DNA of 30,063 nt. It comes from a virus. The notes beneath the pieces were generated by a model. It did not search any database and was not told the origin of the DNA. It saw only the letters and a program-made list of their open reading frames with translations. The stretch's first letter is position 1; the number at the start of each line of letters is the position of its first letter. Shown piece after piece: positions 5,290 through 27,924 of this stretch. The stretch is taken from positions 1 to 30,063 of IMG/VR virus record IMGVR_UViG_3300036985_005042. The stretch is one strand, 5' to 3'. Both the position numbers and the translations under genes were made by a program.

Positions 5290-6492
5290 GTGAGCGATAT
5301 AAAATGGCAGTTAATGTCAGTGTCTAAAATAAAAAATAATCCAAACAATCCTCGATTAATTAATGATGATAAGTTTATTAAGCTTGTGAAAAGCGTTAAA
5401 CAGTTCCCGCAAATGCTTGAATTAAGACCGATAGTAGTAAATAAAGACATGATAGTTTTAGGCGGCAACATGCGCCTTAAAGCGTGCATAGAAGCGGGAA
5501 TAAAAGAAGTCCCTGTTATTGTCGCTGATAATTTAACCGAAGAACAGCAAAAAGAGTTTATTATCAAAGACAATGTTTCAGGTGGTGAATGGGACTGGTC
5601 TGTGCTTGCCAATGAATGGGATCAAGGAGAGTTAGTAGAGTGGGGAGTGGATTTGCCTGTTGTAAAAATACAAGATGAAATTTTAGACACTATATCAGAT
5701 GAGGGAATCCCATCCGATATTAGAACAATTACTAAATATGGTGATATTTGGGAATTTAATAACCACAAATTGGTATGCGGAGATAGTACCTCGCAAACAG
5801 ATATTGAAAAATTGTTAAATGGTTGCACTTGTGATGTTTACGTATTCGATCCACCTTATGATTTAGTAGAATTATATCAAAATGCTATGCCAGTTAAAAA
5901 CAATGATAGTCAAAAGTTAGTATTAATGTGGGATTTTAAAAGATTTGGTGTTGCCTCACACATGGCTATTGAAGCTGGTTGGAATCCATTGTATGAATTT
6001 ATTTGGGATTGTTGCCAAAGCTGGTATACTCCAAATAGACCGCTCGCAAGACATAAAAGCATTGGTATATTTGGAGATAATGAACATTTTAATACAGATT
6101 TGGCAATAATAAAAGATGGCAAAAACAGAGGTAATAAAAAAACTGTTAAAAACACTCGTGGGTCATATGAATACACCCCTCTTGATGGGGCAAAACATAT
6201 ATCTACAGTTGAACAATTTTCTAACTGCCAAGAACGCGATGAACACGGGCATGGAAAACCTGTTAGTTGGATTACTCCCATATTTGCTGGTATAGGTGGG
6301 AATATATATTTAGATTTATTTGGAGGTTCAGGATCAACGATAATAGCCTGTGAAAAGTTAAATAAAAAATCTTATACTATGGAGATCGAACCAAAAAATT
6401 GCGATATGATTGTTCAAAGATATAAAAAATTTTGTGAAGTAAATAATATAAATAGCAGCTTTAAGCTTAATAATGAGATATATTTATTTTAG
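5290..6492 (+). CDS. ParB-like domain fused to a DNA adenine/cytosine-N4 methyltransferase
   Basis: The protein has 400 residues and starts at GTG 5290 after an AGGGG site. Residues 10-95 form a ParB/Srx-like domain (PRLIND, then LRPIVVNKDMIVLGGNMRLKA, with GGNMR at 58-62). A methyltransferase domain follows, with catalytic motif DPPY at 187-190 and the AdoMet-binding motif LFGGSGST at about 343-350. Motif IV precedes motif I, the order of beta-class N6-adenine or N4-cytosine enzymes. Such fusions are common next to phage terminases. They methylate phage DNA against restriction or may mark it for packaging. The target sequence cannot be read from the protein. No restriction partner is present, so it is an orphan enzyme. 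Confidence 0.85.
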   Translation: MSDIKWQLMSVSKIKNNPNNPRLINDDKFIKLVKSVKQFPQMLELRPIVVNKDMIVLGGNMRLKACIEAGIKEVPVIVADNLTEEQQKEFIIKDNVSGGEWDWSVLANEWDQGELVEWGVDLPVVKIQDEILDTISDEGIPSDIRTITKYGDIWEFNNHKLVCGDSTSQTDIEKLLNGCTCDVYVFDPPYDLVELYQNAMPVKNNDSQKLVLMWDFKRFGVASHMAIEAGWNPLYEFIWDCCQSWYTPNRPLARHKSIGIFGDNEHFNTDLAIIKDGKNRGNKKTVKNTRGSYEYTPLDGAKHISTVEQFSNCQERDEHGHGKPVSWITPIFAGIGGNIYLDLFGGSGSTIIACEKLNKKSYTMEIEPKNCDMIVQRYKKFCEVNNINSSFKLNNEIYLF

Positions 6493-6532
6493 CACATCGG
6501 CAATGTCGCCATTGATGGCAAAGGAGATTGTT

Positions 6533-7306
6533 ATGAGTATTTATGAACCGCAGGGTAGAGCGAGAGAGTATTCCCCATTAGCTTTAAACTATTTTAGAGG
6601 ATGCGACAACGGTTGCAAATACTGTTATGTTCCTCCAATGATGGTTAGATTTAATAAAAATTATTGCCATGAAACAGTTTTAATTAATGTTGATTTTGAA
6701 AAAATTGAAAAATCAGCAAAAAAAATGGAAGGTTGCAACAAACAAATATTGTTATCATTTACAACAGACCCATATTGTAATGCTGAATCAGGGGAAACAA
6801 ATGAGGTTTTAAGAATATTAAATAAATACAATCACAAAGTCGCGATTCTAACTAAAAACCCTAACAAAGCGATGCGGGATGTTTATATATTTAAAAAATT
6901 TGGAGATAGATTAAAAATAGGCAGCACATTAGTTTTCAACAATCCCAAAGATTGCAATGAGTGGGAGGGTGGGGCGGAAGTATCTGAAATAAGAATTAGC
7001 GCTTTAAATGAATATAAATTACAAGGAATAAAAACATGGGCAAGCTTTGAGCCTGTTATCGATCCAAAGCAATCATTGTCTATGTTAAAAAAAGCATCTG
7101 AATTTATTGACCATGTAAAAATTGGAAAAATAAATAACTACCAAGGAATGGATAAAAATATTGACTGGGCGCAGTTTATCCATGATTCTGTCGCTATTTG
7201 CAGGGATTCCAATCTAAAGTTTTATGTAAAAAAAGATTTAATAGCATTTAACAAAACGGTGTTTTTATCAGGTAAAGAGGTCGATGAAGACGCTTTAAAC
7301 TTGTAA
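6533..7306 (+). CDS. radical SAM protein, spore-photoproduct-lyase-like group
   Basis: The ATG at 6533 follows AAGGAG; a longer open frame upstream lacks a site. Of 257 residues, the N-terminus reads GRAREYSPLALNYFRGC, then CDNGCKYC with C24, C28 and C31, the CxxxCxxC motif that binds the 4Fe-4S cluster. The rest keeps the fold's pattern: LLSFTTDPYC at about 74, VAILTKNP at about 103, WASFEPVIDP at about 174. The GRAREYSPLALN start resembles the Rv2578c/SplB-related group, often annotated as DNA-repair photolyase-like. The reaction is unknown. Placement between a DNA methyltransferase and terminase suggests action on DNA or a nucleoside, but this is inference. Confidence 0.8.
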   Translation: MSIYEPQGRAREYSPLALNYFRGCDNGCKYCYVPPMMVRFNKNYCHETVLINVDFEKIEKSAKKMEGCNKQILLSFTTDPYCNAESGETNEVLRILNKYNHKVAILTKNPNKAMRDVYIFKKFGDRLKIGSTLVFNNPKDCNEWEGGAEVSEIRISALNEYKLQGIKTWASFEPVIDPKQSLSMLKKASEFIDHVKIGKINNYQGMDKNIDWAQFIHDSVAICRDSNLKFYVKKDLIAFNKTVFLSGKEVDEDALNL

Positions 7307-22132: not shown

Positions 22133-24706
22133 ATGGAAAACGTATACAACGAAGTTGGCGCGACATTCGAGCAAAGGCACTTGATGAACCAAACAGAGGC
22201 GAATCTTACCGCCGCCATGCGTCCTTGTCAAGTAGGCGTTATAACTGGTGGTGATAGCAGATTATTAATCAATGACGACGCTGGTAACAAGGCAAAAACG
22301 GTTGTGACTAAAGGCACCGATATTGCGGCTGGCGCAGTGCCTAAGTTTACTACAAAAGGGCAACAAATCGCATCCGCTATTACTGATGATGGATCAACGG
22401 TAGAAGTAAGCTCTCCACTATTAGTCGACGGCTCATTATCGGTCATAGATCAAGTAATCGAAGTTGAATCTACAGTTTTGCCGTCGAGAAATACAGTGAC
22501 ATTATGGGAAACAGGATTTGCCGATCCTGACAATATCGTAGTGTCTTACAATGGGACTACAAGAAAAGTTACAGTTACAAATAAACTTGGTGGGGCTAAT
22601 AAAATATCTGCGTTGTTCCAAGGGAATTATGTGCTTGCGTTTGAGGTTACTTCTTACGAAAGCGCGGCACACGATGCGGCGGATAATGAGTATTGGCTTT
22701 ATCATAATGGCACAAGCTTTGTATGGGCAAATTCTTTCCCAGGCATGGAATATATTTTAATTTCTCTTGCGTATCGTGATGGAGCCAATTTTTGCATTAG
22801 AGAATGCCATGGGGCACAACTTCCATCCGCCTCACATGAGTTAAATCATAAAAACGTAGGGGCAACTTTGGCTTCAGGTGGTGACTTATCAAACTACACT
22901 CTTAATAATACTACCGAAACAAATCGCCGCCCTCAAATTTCTGAAACTATTATTAGTGATGATGGCTTAAACACCACAAATCCCGCTCTTACCACGAATA
23001 GTTATTCATGGTTGTATTTATCAGGTGCAAACTCCGCAAATATGGAATCTGACAAAACCGAAATAGTTAATTTATCAACGAATAGACCATATTATAATCA
23101 GTTTACTGGTGGAGCTTGGGAACAAACGCTAATGGGAAATGGAGCATATCAAAAACTATTTGTTATGGCTATACCATCAACATCAGATACCGAATGCCAA
23201 AAGAAACGATACTTATTTATTCAAGGACAATCATCAAGCACGACGCTTGCAACTATTCAAGCTTTGACTTTCGCAAATGTCAATCTTGGTCATATTGCTA
23301 ATGTACTCCCCGAGTTCGTGCCGATTGCTGAAATTATAATACAATATAATTCTGCTGGTGGTGGTACATGGCAATTAATAAGCGTATCTAAATTACTTGG
23401 TTCTCAAAAACAGCAGATTGGAATTATTGCTGGTAATTATTTGTCAACGGTGTCAACAACTGCCCCAATAAGCGGGAATGGGACGGCTGGGTCACCAATA
23501 GTATTAAATTCATTAGGAACTCAAAATAGTATTGCTAAATTTGATGCAAACGGGCATCCATCGAATAGCTCGATTGCCGATGATGGGATAACGGTTGAAA
23601 CTACCAGTGATTTGGTAATCAAGAAAAATGGTGCTAAAATATTATTAGGGAATGCCTCTACTATTGGTAACGGAGGAGAGGGTGATCCTTATGGGGTAAT
23701 ATGCAGAAGAATAATTCCTTTAGGACAGGGAGCTTCTCAAGAAAAAACAGAATTGATTATATTTAATGCAAACGATCCAACAGAGGGAATCAGTGGTGCT
23801 GATCGAATTGGGTTAAGAGCACCTGAATTATTATTACAAACATTTGATAATTCTGACGTTGAAGATATTGACAACGATAATGGTTATGTACCACATATTC
23901 AGCTTGATAAAGATGGTTATCTAAATTCAGTCCACAAAAACGGGGAAGCGCTTGTCGTTAATGGTGCAATAAAAAAAGGTGCGACTATAACCGATCAAAG
24001 TAAAACAAGAGGGTTAGACATTGTTGGTTATTTAGATGCAGATTGTGGCAGCACTGCGCATGCAGTTACTATTACTGGTAAAAATTCAAATATTTCGCAT
24101 GGTTGTGTTGCTATAAACGCTGTAAAAAATACGAGTACCAGTTTGGATGCGGGAGATGTAATTCTTGATATAGAAAATAACGGTACTAATAAAGTGCAGG
24201 TTCAAGGCAATGGTGATATAACTACGCTGGCAGGTGTTTCTGCTGCTAAATTATCAGTAGGGGCGACAAACAGCTCAATACCAACTTATGCTGTTGCTCA
24301 ATTCGATAGTGCTTCAAAAGGGTTATTAATACCAAGAGTGACCCGCACTGCCAGGGATGATTTAATTGATAACTCTGCGACCTCAGGAATCATCGCGTAC
24401 AACTCAACAGATAATCAGCTATTTGTAAAAGGTGGGGCAAACTACTTATTATCAGTTCCTGCGTGCCCAGCGCATGGAACTTTGGTTGGTAATTTTGCAG
24501 CTACAACAATATCACTTAATCCAAACTTCAAATACGCAAGAGCTGAAAGTATTTTTTGGTATCGACTTGGAAAAGTTGGTAGTGCAGTAGCGGAAGAGAA
24601 GTATGTAAATGCGGTTGATATTGGTAGTGGTATTTACGGGCTGCAATACACTGGATTAGGTGATTCATTCCCACAAGTTCTTGAATGGCGATTGGTGCAA
24701 ATATGA
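22133..24706 (+). CDS. tail fibre / receptor-binding protein
   Basis: The ATG lies after AAGGGG in this 857-residue protein. The N-terminus (MENVYNEVGATFEQRHLMNQ) is likely the attachment domain. The body is beta-rich with glycine, serine and asparagine repeats. Two similar segments read GQQIASAITDDGSTVEVSS (about 83) and NSSIADDGITVETTSD (about 480), so the shaft has internal repeats. Near the C-terminus DSASKGLLIPRVTRTARD and SGIIAYNSTDNQLFVKGG match a module common in fibre proteins of phages and in adhesins of Bacteroidota. The last 90 residues are probably the receptor-binding tip. No intramolecular chaperone domain is visible. Confidence 0.82.
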   Translation: MENVYNEVGATFEQRHLMNQTEANLTAAMRPCQVGVITGGDSRLLINDDAGNKAKTVVTKGTDIAAGAVPKFTTKGQQIASAITDDGSTVEVSSPLLVDGSLSVIDQVIEVESTVLPSRNTVTLWETGFADPDNIVVSYNGTTRKVTVTNKLGGANKISALFQGNYVLAFEVTSYESAAHDAADNEYWLYHNGTSFVWANSFPGMEYILISLAYRDGANFCIRECHGAQLPSASHELNHKNVGATLASGGDLSNYTLNNTTETNRRPQISETIISDDGLNTTNPALTTNSYSWLYLSGANSANMESDKTEIVNLSTNRPYYNQFTGGAWEQTLMGNGAYQKLFVMAIPSTSDTECQKKRYLFIQGQSSSTTLATIQALTFANVNLGHIANVLPEFVPIAEIIIQYNSAGGGTWQLISVSKLLGSQKQQIGIIAGNYLSTVSTTAPISGNGTAGSPIVLNSLGTQNSIAKFDANGHPSNSSIADDGITVETTSDLVIKKNGAKILLGNASTIGNGGEGDPYGVICRRIIPLGQGASQEKTELIIFNANDPTEGISGADRIGLRAPELLLQTFDNSDVEDIDNDNGYVPHIQLDKDGYLNSVHKNGEALVVNGAIKKGATITDQSKTRGLDIVGYLDADCGSTAHAVTITGKNSNISHGCVAINAVKNTSTSLDAGDVILDIENNGTNKVQVQGNGDITTLAGVSAAKLSVGATNSSIPTYAVAQFDSASKGLLIPRVTRTARDDLIDNSATSGIIAYNSTDNQLFVKGGANYLLSVPACPAHGTLVGNFAATTISLNPNFKYARAESIFWYRLGKVGSAVAEEKYVNAVDIGSGIYGLQYTGLGDSFPQVLEWRLVQI

Positions 24707-25221
24707 AAATATATATTCCTATGGAAACAAGACAACACGTTGAGCCATTAGCACTTGGTTCCATTTTAGATCAAACTATTTCATGCGATGTCGTATGCTG
24801 TTTTACCGACGGCGTAATAAATACAAATAGTAATATTCGGAACCCAAAAGACAACAAAGCTAAGTTTGAAGGGGAAGGGTTAGGCAGGAACATAGCTTTG
24901 CAAATGGCAATTGAAGCGGACGACGAGTTTTTTATCATGCAAGATCGTGATATTGTTCATTTAAAAGAAAATAATTTCAATGATGCAATTGAAATGCTTA
25001 AAAAAAATCAAAAAATTGATGCTGTTATTCTTCCGTTCGTTGATGGAATACAGCCTTCTCATAAACGCATTGCATGTACTGTAATAAGAACAAGCTCTAT
25101 TATCAATTTTAAATTTATCACGGATTATAAAAATGGAGTTTGTTGTCATTGTAATAAATTTTCAAATGAAATAACTACCGAATGGCTTGGGATTGAAAAA
25201 AGAATATACGAGATAATTTGA
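24703..25221 (+). CDS. glycosyltransferase family 2-like protein
   Basis: The ATG at 24703 overlaps the fibre stop (ATGA). The 172-residue product begins MKIYIPMETRQHVEPLALGS, then ILDQTISCDVVCCFTDG, which resembles the nucleotide-sugar-binding start of GT-A glycosyltransferases. FIMQDRDIVHLKE supplies a DxD-like Asp-Arg-Asp metal site, and EGLGRNIALQMAIEA resembles the helix before it. It is shorter than complete family 2 enzymes and lacks a clear acceptor domain. Placed right after the fibre, it might glycosylate the fibre or host surface sugar. Both the fold and the role are inferences. Confidence 0.5.
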   Translation: MKIYIPMETRQHVEPLALGSILDQTISCDVVCCFTDGVINTNSNIRNPKDNKAKFEGEGLGRNIALQMAIEADDEFFIMQDRDIVHLKENNFNDAIEMLKKNQKIDAVILPFVDGIQPSHKRIACTVIRTSSIINFKFITDYKNGVCCHCNKFSNEITTEWLGIEKRIYEII

Positions 25222-25222
25222 T

Positions 25223-25822
25223 ATGAAGATATTAATAATAGACGACGACATTCAAAAAGCGAATTTGCTTTCAGAGCGAATAAGCGAACATGAAATATCT
25301 ATCGAGACTGATCCATTTAAGGCGGTTAGCAAAATAAGAAACAGATACGATGCCGTTTTGTGTGATGTGTTTTTTGATGCTAAAGAGCAGGGTGGAAAAA
25401 TCCTTGACATGTTTATATCTGCAAAAAGTTGCCGGCTGCCAGTTTTGTACAGTGCAGCAAAAGAAGCTATTATAAACAAGCCTGTAGAAAGTGCAGCCTA
25501 CGACTTCAATGATTTAATAGAAAAATTGCCGATGCTTTTACGCAACTTGGGGGAAGAACAGTACGAGGAACAACCAAGTAATAACAATGGTAAAATATTT
25601 GGTCGTAGGGAATCAGATAGCAAGCCTCAATACAACAAAGATTTGTGTGATTTACGCCATGTTGAGGAGTTAAAATCAATCGAAAAAATAGAAACTAATC
25701 ATGACAAATTAAGTCTTGAGGTAAAAAACCTTAAAGACGCGACGAACAACAAATTTCTATCGCTTGCAGTAGCTTTAATTATGTTACTAATAGGGATTAT
25801 AACTAAACAATACATCCATTAA
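25223..25822 (+). CDS. receiver-like domain fused to coiled coil and C-terminal membrane anchor
   Basis: Residues 1-90 of this 199-residue protein look like a response-regulator receiver: KILIIDDDI with the acidic pair at Asp7-Asp9, YDAVLCDVFFD with phospho-acceptor Asp48, LPVLYSA with Ser77, and NKPV with Lys86-Pro87. The gap from Ser77 to Lys86 is only nine residues, shorter than in full receivers, so one helix/strand unit is reduced. A charged linker (105-140), a coiled coil (HVEELKSIEKIETNHDKLSL) and one membrane helix (about 176-194, LAVALIMLLIGII) follow. The coiled coil plus anchor resembles XhlA-type lysis proteins. It starts one base after the previous stop and precedes the holin. 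Phosphorylation is unproven. Confidence 0.6.
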   Translation: MKILIIDDDIQKANLLSERISEHEISIETDPFKAVSKIRNRYDAVLCDVFFDAKEQGGKILDMFISAKSCRLPVLYSAAKEAIINKPVESAAYDFNDLIEKLPMLLRNLGEEQYEEQPSNNNGKIFGRRESDSKPQYNKDLCDLRHVEELKSIEKIETNHDKLSLEVKNLKDATNNKFLSLAVALIMLLIGIITKQYIH

Positions 25823-25836
25823 CCGAGGGTATTATT

Positions 25837-25938
25837 ATGACAAAAGAAAAAATATGCATCGTGGCGAAGCACACTTTATATTTATTAGAATCGGTATTAT
25901 TTGTACAATTATTGGCTATCGTGTTGGTTAAAATTTAA
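25837..25938 (+). CDS. 33-residue membrane peptide
   Basis: The ATG at 25837 follows GAGGGT by seven bases. The peptide begins MTKEKICIVAKH and then has a hydrophobic run (VLFVQLLAIVLVKI) that can span the membrane. It lies between the receiver-coiled-coil gene and the holin-like gene, so a lysis-related role is possible. Size alone limits certainty. Confidence 0.5.
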   Translation: MTKEKICIVAKHTLYLLESVLFVQLLAIVLVKI

Positions 25939-25952
25939 CTTCATAGGTAGAT

Positions 25953-26159
25953 ATGAAAACAAGCGCAAAATGGCGGTTAAATGCCCGTGATTACGTTCAA
26001 GGGGTGTTAGTGTCGGTACTGTCAAGTGTCGGGGCATTAGCGGTCACCATGCTAAGCAATGGCGGTAAAATAGAGTGGAAAACCATTGGTGTGACTGCTA
26101 TTGCATCAGCTATAGGTTATTTGCTTAAAAAGCTTCCTCAAAGTGACGTGCAAAAATGA
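25953..26159 (+). CDS. holin-like membrane protein
   Basis: An AGGTAG site precedes this 68-residue gene. After a basic N-terminus (MKTSAKWRLNARD) come two hydrophobic segments, about 16-33 (VQGVLVSVLSSVGALAVT) and 43-59 (TIGVTAIASAIGYLLKK), with a short polar turn and a charged C-terminus. This suits a class II holin, which makes the membrane lesion releasing endolysin. The M15 peptidase gene follows 735 bases later. No sequence family is certain. Confidence 0.65.
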   Translation: MKTSAKWRLNARDYVQGVLVSVLSSVGALAVTMLSNGGKIEWKTIGVTAIASAIGYLLKKLPQSDVQK

Positions 26160-26898: not shown

Positions 26899-27380
26899 GC
26901 TTGCTATATCCAAAATACGCACAATTAAAACTCGGTGTCCCTACATCTCCAAAGCCAACAGATTGTTTATTCATCGACGTTCCCGAGGAATTGCGCGATC
27001 ATTTTCCAAAACGTATTTACGTAGGAAGATGTATTGCAACACCGCTTGCTAATGCTCTTGCGGCAATTGCGTCTCGCCGGCTTCACGATCTAATTGAGAC
27101 GTGGGACGGATGCTATAACGTTCGTAAGGCTAGAAAAAATAGCCTCGATTGGTCTCTTCACTCTTGGGGTGTGGCGGTTGATTTTAACCAAGTTAATAAC
27201 CCTCAAGGTATTATTCCTGATATTAAAGTTAGGATTAACAAAAAACTTGTAGAGTGTTTTACAGATAATGGATTTGAATGGGGTGGTGATTGGCATTTGC
27301 CAAGTACTGATTGTATGCACTTTCAACTTTCAAAAGAGACTTTTGACAAACAGTATGAGCGTTTTTACGAGGTGAAATAA
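26895..27380 (+). CDS. M15-family peptidase endolysin
   Basis: The ATG at 26895 overlaps the previous stop, with GAGGTG upstream; the protein has 161 residues. The zinc site of D-Ala-D-Ala/L-Ala-D-Glu peptidases is visible: SLHSWGVAVDFN gives His89 and Asp96, and DCMHFQL gives Asp139 and His142, with the conserved FEWGGDWH before it. It cuts peptide links in peptidoglycan. With no signal peptide it needs the holin to reach the wall. No separate wall-binding domain is present. Its stop overlaps the next start (TAATG). Confidence 0.85.
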   Translation: MSLLYPKYAQLKLGVPTSPKPTDCLFIDVPEELRDHFPKRIYVGRCIATPLANALAAIASRRLHDLIETWDGCYNVRKARKNSLDWSLHSWGVAVDFNQVNNPQGIIPDIKVRINKKLVECFTDNGFEWGGDWHLPSTDCMHFQLSKETFDKQYERFYEVK

Positions 27381-27559
27381 TGCCACTAACCTACGACGAA
27401 GCCGCCGATTTGATGCCTGAGTTTATTACGAGTTGTAAGTATTTTCGAGATGTAACAGTGCCAAAAGTAGCTTACGGGTGTGCCTTTGGTCAATCCGAAA
27501 AAGTGGCTAACCATATTTTTTCATGCCGAAACTGTCCGCTTGGAAGGAATGGTGAGTGA
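27380..27559 (+). CDS. 59-residue cysteine-containing protein
   Basis: It starts in a TAATG overlap with the endolysin, with GAGGTGA ahead of it, and ends overlapping the HNH gene. The sequence starts MPLTYDEAADLMPEFITSCK, then has VAYGCAFG and ends FSCRNCPLGRNGE. Four cysteines, two as CRNC, could bind zinc. Function unknown, but precise overlaps on both sides argue for a real gene. Confidence 0.6.
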   Translation: MPLTYDEAADLMPEFITSCKYFRDVTVPKVAYGCAFGQSEKVANHIFSCRNCPLGRNGE

Positions 27560-27924
27560 TGAAAATTGACCGTGTAAAAGTTTACCAAAAATGCAATGGT
27601 CATTGCGCTTATTGTGGTTGCGAAATAACGATTAAGCAAATGCAAATAGACCATGTATTCCCTCAATTGCTCTCACATCACGAACCTGAGTTTGATAAAA
27701 ATAGATTCGCAAATTTAATGCCTTCTTGTCACAAATGCAATAACCACAAAGGTGGAATGAAGTTAGAGTTTTGGAGAAGTGAACTACAACGTCAAGTTAA
27801 AATGTTACATAACAATAGTCAATTTATGAGAGCTTTAAGATATGGTCAAATTGCAATTACAGAAACACCGATAGTTTTTTATTTTGAAAAACCACCACTT
27901 GACAAAGGAGAAAAACTAACATGA
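27559..27924 (+). CDS. HNH endonuclease
   Basis: Of two possible starts I chose the ATG at 27559 after GGTGAG, giving 121 residues. The HNH core is clear: GHCAYCG zinc pair, then IDHVFP with the catalytic His after Asp, NLMPSCHKCNNHKGG with Asn and the second CxxC. A helical C-terminal part follows. It may be a free-standing homing-type nuclease or assist packaging and DNA processing. It lies far from terminase, with the lysis genes, which fits a mobile HNH gene. It overlaps the next gene by ATGA. Confidence 0.85.
   Translation: MKIDRVKVYQKCNGHCAYCGCEITIKQMQIDHVFPQLLSHHEPEFDKNRFANLMPSCHKCNNHKGGMKLEFWRSELQRQVKMLHNNSQFMRALRYGQIAITETPIVFYFEKPPLDKGEKLT

Follow-up and report, generated by a model that had tools for sequence, protein, structure and literature searches.

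A divergent receiver-like domain joined to a predicted membrane anchor in a viral protein encoded upstream of an endolysin gene

The window analysed here is the whole of a 30,063-base IMG/VR virus record, possibly a fragment. At 25223-25822 it holds an uninterrupted plus-strand frame of 199 codons, a real ORF encoding a 199-aa protein, and the features of this protein and of the genes around it are as follows.

24685-25221, plus strand: upstream gene, weakly glycosyltransferase-like (TIGR04282 E 0.0016, far under the cut-off)
25223-25822, plus strand: gene of the 199-aa protein, made up of a receiver-like domain, a linker, a helix and a C-terminal membrane span
25223-25558, plus strand: receiver-like domain, residues 1-112 (PF00072, REC profile, structure model and PDB matches)
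25241-25249, plus strand: D7-D8-D9; the first two match the acid pair in the alignment, where the D7 column is near-invariant and that of D8 invariant
25364-25366, plus strand: D48, predicted phosphoacceptor (invariant column in 11 receivers)
25451-25453, plus strand: S77, at the conserved Thr/Ser position by alignment
25478-25483, plus strand: K86-P87, a possible match to the conserved Lys-Pro (two-sequence alignments, global hhalign)
25523-25525, plus strand: K101, competing choice for the conserved Lys (larger MAFFT alignment, hmmsearch)
25628-25660, plus strand: QYNKDLCDLRH, residues 136-146; the same stretch occurs unchanged in a stand-alone phage protein that lacks a receiver (L001:4992-5282)
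25634-25747, plus strand: long helix, probable coiled coil (single-sequence model; crude heptad score 0.47)
25748-25804, plus strand: membrane span, residues about 176-194 (span prediction; pLDDT about 90 at residues 181-190 in the single-sequence model)
25837-25938, plus strand: hydrophobic 33-aa ORF lying after the receiver gene and before the holin-like ORF; no informative family match
25953-26159, plus strand: 68-aa ORF, called holin-like by inspection only
26910-27380, plus strand: M15-type endolysin (PF13539 2.6e-15; PHROG endolysin 1.5e-9)

The stop codon of the upstream gene and the start codon of the receiver gene are separated by a single base. The original prediction had placed the protein just before a holin-like gene; an M15-type endolysin does follow further downstream, but the 33-aa ORF intervenes, and the 68-aa ORF at 25953 gave no match in a search with holin families. 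A single membrane helix had also been expected in the C-terminal half, and span prediction bears this out, the span being preceded by a helix that the single-sequence model draws from residue 138 to 198, at low confidence ahead of residue 162. XhlA proteins consist of a helix and one C-terminal membrane span, and the 199-aa protein resembles such lysis proteins in having this arrangement near lysis genes, whereas it differs from them in carrying a receiver and in showing no sequence match. The description 'XhlA-like' did not find confirmation, because no XhlA model matched in Pfam (E up to 10) or PHROGs (E up to 1) and the crude coiled-coil score was borderline, lying just under the threshold of 0.5. 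Residues 133-185 match, at 39% identity, a 96-aa stand-alone protein in the record L001, and that protein has no receiver.

Evidence that residues 1-112 form a divergent, receiver-like domain comes from several kinds of search. Residues 3-101 align with positions 1-99 of the 111 in the Pfam Response_reg profile (PF00072) at E 0.014 and 16 bits, which does not reach the gathering cut-off of 30.2, and the E value becomes 1.1e-4 when scoring is restricted to the window record. PHROGs gave phrog_5982 (E 0.003) and phrog_731 (E 0.0039), both of which also match the clear receiver of the viral record L258, together with the unnamed phrog_6052 (E 0.33). NCBIfam matches of the receiver part were to ZraR and CpxR, a PDB sequence search returned three response regulators (E 0.43-0.49), and all the nameable sub-threshold matches to residues 2-101 are receivers. 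A profile built from nine receivers of one MAG scored 8.2 bits, a value reached by 14 of 20,000 shuffles. A 16-REC profile scored 31.5 bits, a score reached by none of 50,000 shuffles (best shuffle 12.6), and this figure is favourable since nine of its 16 members are viral receivers that were found with queries including the 199-aa protein itself.

A single-sequence structure model was uninformative (pLDDT 43) and showed no receiver fold. An AlphaFold model computed with an alignment of ten viral receivers, truncated past beta4 to leave the C-terminal half unconstrained, reached pLDDT 75.6 and pTM 0.68 and is biased by that alignment. When it was searched against the PDB with Foldseek, the best 50 matches appeared from their titles to be receivers or response-regulator proteins, with E values down to 1.1e-5, and structural comparison gave best Z values of 15-16; in VIA-align, rows 13 and 16 (Dsk2 and USP11) have titles that name no receiver. 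No confident non-receiver fold appeared, in keeping with the receiver assignment that had been proposed. It could still be argued that an unrelated alpha/beta domain resembles a receiver by chance, given the modest Pfam E value and the failure of the single-sequence model; we judge this very improbable, because the shuffle tests, the NCBIfam matches and the PDB structural matches all speak for a receiver. The Pfam match, the profile scores, the model and the span prediction together support the proposed tethering of a receiver domain to a membrane helix, and we hold this receiver and membrane-anchor anatomy of the 199-aa protein to be very probable.

The catalytic landmarks that had been listed for the domain stood in part. 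D7, D8, D48 and S77 align with catalytic positions, and the small residue A78 directly after S77 is kept, but the assignment of K86-P87 as the Lys-Pro is contested by the alignments that favour K101 and by the AlphaFold model, in which residues 81-88 form a low-confidence loop and beta5 lies at 92-93. The conserved beta5 Lys could be K86, K101 or neither. If K86 is correct, the distance from S77 is 9 residues, compared with a Thr/Ser-to-Lys spacing of 22 in 7 of 7 bacterial receivers; moreover, the alpha4 region is reduced or lost and the proline at D+4 is absent. These departures leave room for a degenerate pseudo-receiver that is kept only for protein-protein contact and carries out no phosphotransfer. 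According to a section of PMC12632262, pseudo-receivers typically lose key residues and the D+4 and D+8 preferences, and the uncertain Lys, the poorly defined loop and the missing proline would agree with such a loss. However, the acid pair, D48, S77 and A78 are all retained and only the Lys is in doubt, and we regard a pseudo-receiver as rather unlikely.

Compared with single-domain response regulators of the CheY/DivK type (PF00072), the 199-aa protein has the same predicted fold, acid pair and phosphoacceptor Asp, with a Ser at the Thr position, and differs in staying under the Pfam cut-off, in its reduced alpha4 and uncertain Lys, and in the fused membrane anchor. Phage-encoded receivers and kinases are also known, among them the receiver domains of phrog_731 and phrog_5982 and two BFVD entries (a response regulator of Myoviridae ctrnx29 and a hybrid kinase of Alteromonas phage PT11-V22), but none of those listed shows a fusion of a receiver with a membrane helix, as judged by their names. 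A further comparison is with cREC (PF20274), likewise a divergent receiver borne by phages, as described in part of PMC7824862. A 437-aa protein at L257:3038-4351 has a C-terminal cREC domain (PF20274 2.5e-12). This L257 domain is among the two top-scoring pairwise partners of the 199-aa protein (40.4 bits, against 38.5 to L258), and both have one additional residue in the loop between beta3 and alpha3, as might be expected if the domain at 25223 were of the cREC type and processed cyclic phosphates. Against this, PF20274 did not match the 199-aa protein at E up to 10 with filters on, the HSMN stretch of the L257 domain is YSAA in the 199-aa protein, and the neighbouring ORFs, when read, showed no recognisable NAD or RNA-repair gene, so we consider a cREC-type function highly unlikely.

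Searches of viral contigs, phages, genomes and related records turned up nothing akin to the fused protein, which may therefore be a one-off. Viral contigs gave one match only, confined to the C-terminal half, and a last viral scan found none; among 50,697 phage records there was no relative of the receiver part, and the four matches to residues 1-110 all had E values of at least 1. Plasmids contained no relative (2 records match part of the protein at E 9), nor did genome contigs contain one of the fused protein. Among 37 terminase-related virus records (the L001 record and 36 of 74 terminase loci), the 199-aa protein matched only the L001 record, in the C-terminal half, and with the window included PF00072 was found in 1 of 38 records, the window itself. 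Fifty of 80 capsid relatives yielded neither the 199-aa protein (0/50) nor PF00072 (0/50), the former search having no positive, so that its empty answer carries no weight. A motif search for other Cys-His plus membrane proteins returned the known relative and otherwise apparent noise, and none turned up when 7,145 ORFs were scanned using a weak bacterial profile, with which the 199-aa protein itself scores only 8.2 bits. Matches of other viral receivers to phage records were set aside, being mostly unannotated and suspected of bacterial contamination. As for the host, the one relative of the terminase in a named genome lies on a short contig of a Dehalococcoidia MAG, and its best phage matches are to Phocaeicola-type phages at about 42%, which is insufficient to name a host. 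A literature search that lay largely outside subscription journals found no description of a membrane-tethered phage receiver, and a search on the name PT11-V22 gave only kinase papers among the matches listed.

Scans with the receiver part identified nine other viral receiver records, counting duplicates once (L257, L258, L260, L261 with L262 and L263, L264, L265, L266, L267 and L268), and in several of them the receiver gene adjoins a membrane gene. The L258 receiver gene shares an ATGA overlap with a gene for a 120-aa membrane/coiled-coil protein, a similar gene overlaps the receiver gene in L260, and in L267 the receiver overlaps the following membrane/coiled-coil gene by ATGA. Moreover, a 55-aa membrane ORF has a 4-base overlap with the receiver gene in L265, and a six-span protein starts 29 bases after the receiver in L261. 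Membrane and coiled-coil neighbours are thus present in 3 of the 9 records, against 6 of 253 background ORFs by a crude score, three of these six reading as the very neighbours of the receivers; finding at least three among 18 neighbour places has a post hoc p of 0.001-0.008, and any membrane neighbour in 5 of 9 records a post hoc p of 0.055. Phage identity is indicated for L265 by terminase and tape measure genes and for L260 by a Dda-like helicase, and rests on the IMG/VR assignment for L258 and L267; L266 adjoins a flagellin-like ORF and may be bacterial, and L264 and L268 are also uncertain.

The L258 and L260 pairs resemble the 199-aa protein in that a receiver is tied to a membrane/coiled-coil protein, and the L258 receiver is 40% identical to it over residues 1-50, whereas they differ in consisting of two genes, in an N-terminal membrane span and in a near-normal alpha4 spacing. 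Thr/Ser-to-Lys spacings beside membrane genes are 20 in L258, 18 in L260, 18 in L261 and 15 in L265, and elsewhere 22 in L264, 20 in L266 and 22 and 22 in L268, the values for L258, L260 and the second L268 receiver being set by eye where the motif script gave 21, 19 and 17. L267, whose pair is nearest to a kinase, has the normal spacing of 22. On the basis of these pairs the 199-aa protein looks like a single-chain version of a receiver and membrane/coiled-coil pair that recurs in phages; the likeness is one of anatomy, and the membrane partners in the other records have their span at the opposite end.

Of 11 records searched for HATPase, 4 contained it (those of L258, L264, L267 and L268), and the window is not among them. 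A histidine kinase is likewise encoded in two of the three records in which a receiver gene overlaps a membrane/coiled-coil gene: in L267, a 139.6-kb virus record, a HATPase kinase gene (L267:4363-5304) starts about 950 bases past the receiver end, and the record of L258 encodes a hybrid histidine kinase of 1051 aa that combines PAS, GAF, HisKA, HATPase and receiver domains (L274:2598-5753). We raise, tentatively and as a rather doubtful generalisation, the idea of a recurring membrane-tethered receiver module, made as two overlapping genes or as one fusion, that taps histidine kinases of the host membrane and to which some phages add a kinase of their own. Such a module would amount to a phage-run two-component branch that controls the state of the host envelope or the timing of lysis. 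The separate overlapping-gene versions offer several systems for testing this idea.

The surroundings of the gene suggest another role, in which phosphorylation of D48 alters assembly of the coiled coil and hence holin triggering, making the protein a switch for lysis timing. The gene sits between tail and glycosyltransferase-like genes on one side and the small hydrophobic ORF, the holin-like ORF and the M15 endolysin on the other, and in the related phage G016 a 105-aa membrane/helix gene is similarly placed before an ORF that is peptidase-like by eye. PMC12642591 describes a precedent in phage N4, where the lysis regulator gp62 and a pinholin domain are both cytoplasmic. However, this argument for a lysis role is positional only, drawn from gene order: no holin family was matched, the receiver and membrane pairs of the other viral records have no tie to recognised lysis genes in the parts read, and the Lys and the alpha4 region that a phospho-switch would require are doubtful. 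We consider a lysis-timing switch unlikely.

Receivers are mostly soluble signalling parts, and their docking to kinases occurs through alpha1. Our preferred reading, which falls somewhat short of probable, is that the membrane-tethered receiver docks on a histidine kinase of the host membrane and serves as a decoy or sink, or as a kinase holder. The helix/coiled coil and the C-terminal span would hold the receiver on the cytoplasmic side of the host membrane, where its kept alpha1 side could dock on a membrane histidine kinase; this kinase would be the host's, because none was found by HATPase search on the window record, which may be a fragment. The docked receiver might then act as a decoy or phosphate sink, or hold the kinase, and host envelope signalling may be altered late in infection. 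We infer this mechanism from the kept acid site, the reduced output face and the membrane tether. The alpha4-beta5-alpha5 surface is the receiver output face according to a portion of PMC12632262, and the reduction of the alpha4 region, which belongs to that usual face, is consistent with a domain that serves for reception or binding and drives no DNA-binding output. A receiver that a phage anchors in the membrane would give a virus an unusual means of reading or blocking host kinases.

Other genes of the window were recorded in passing. A 188-aa protein at 1911-2477 consists mostly of CELGDG-type repeats. By inspection, the protein at 5290-6492 is ParB-like and methyltransferase-like, with a relative in L058 at 36%, and that at 6473-7306 is like Radical-SAM proteins or spore photoproduct lyase, with a relative in L097 at 36%. 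Downstream of the endolysin gene, an HNH endonuclease is encoded at 27556-27924 (PF01844 1.4e-6).
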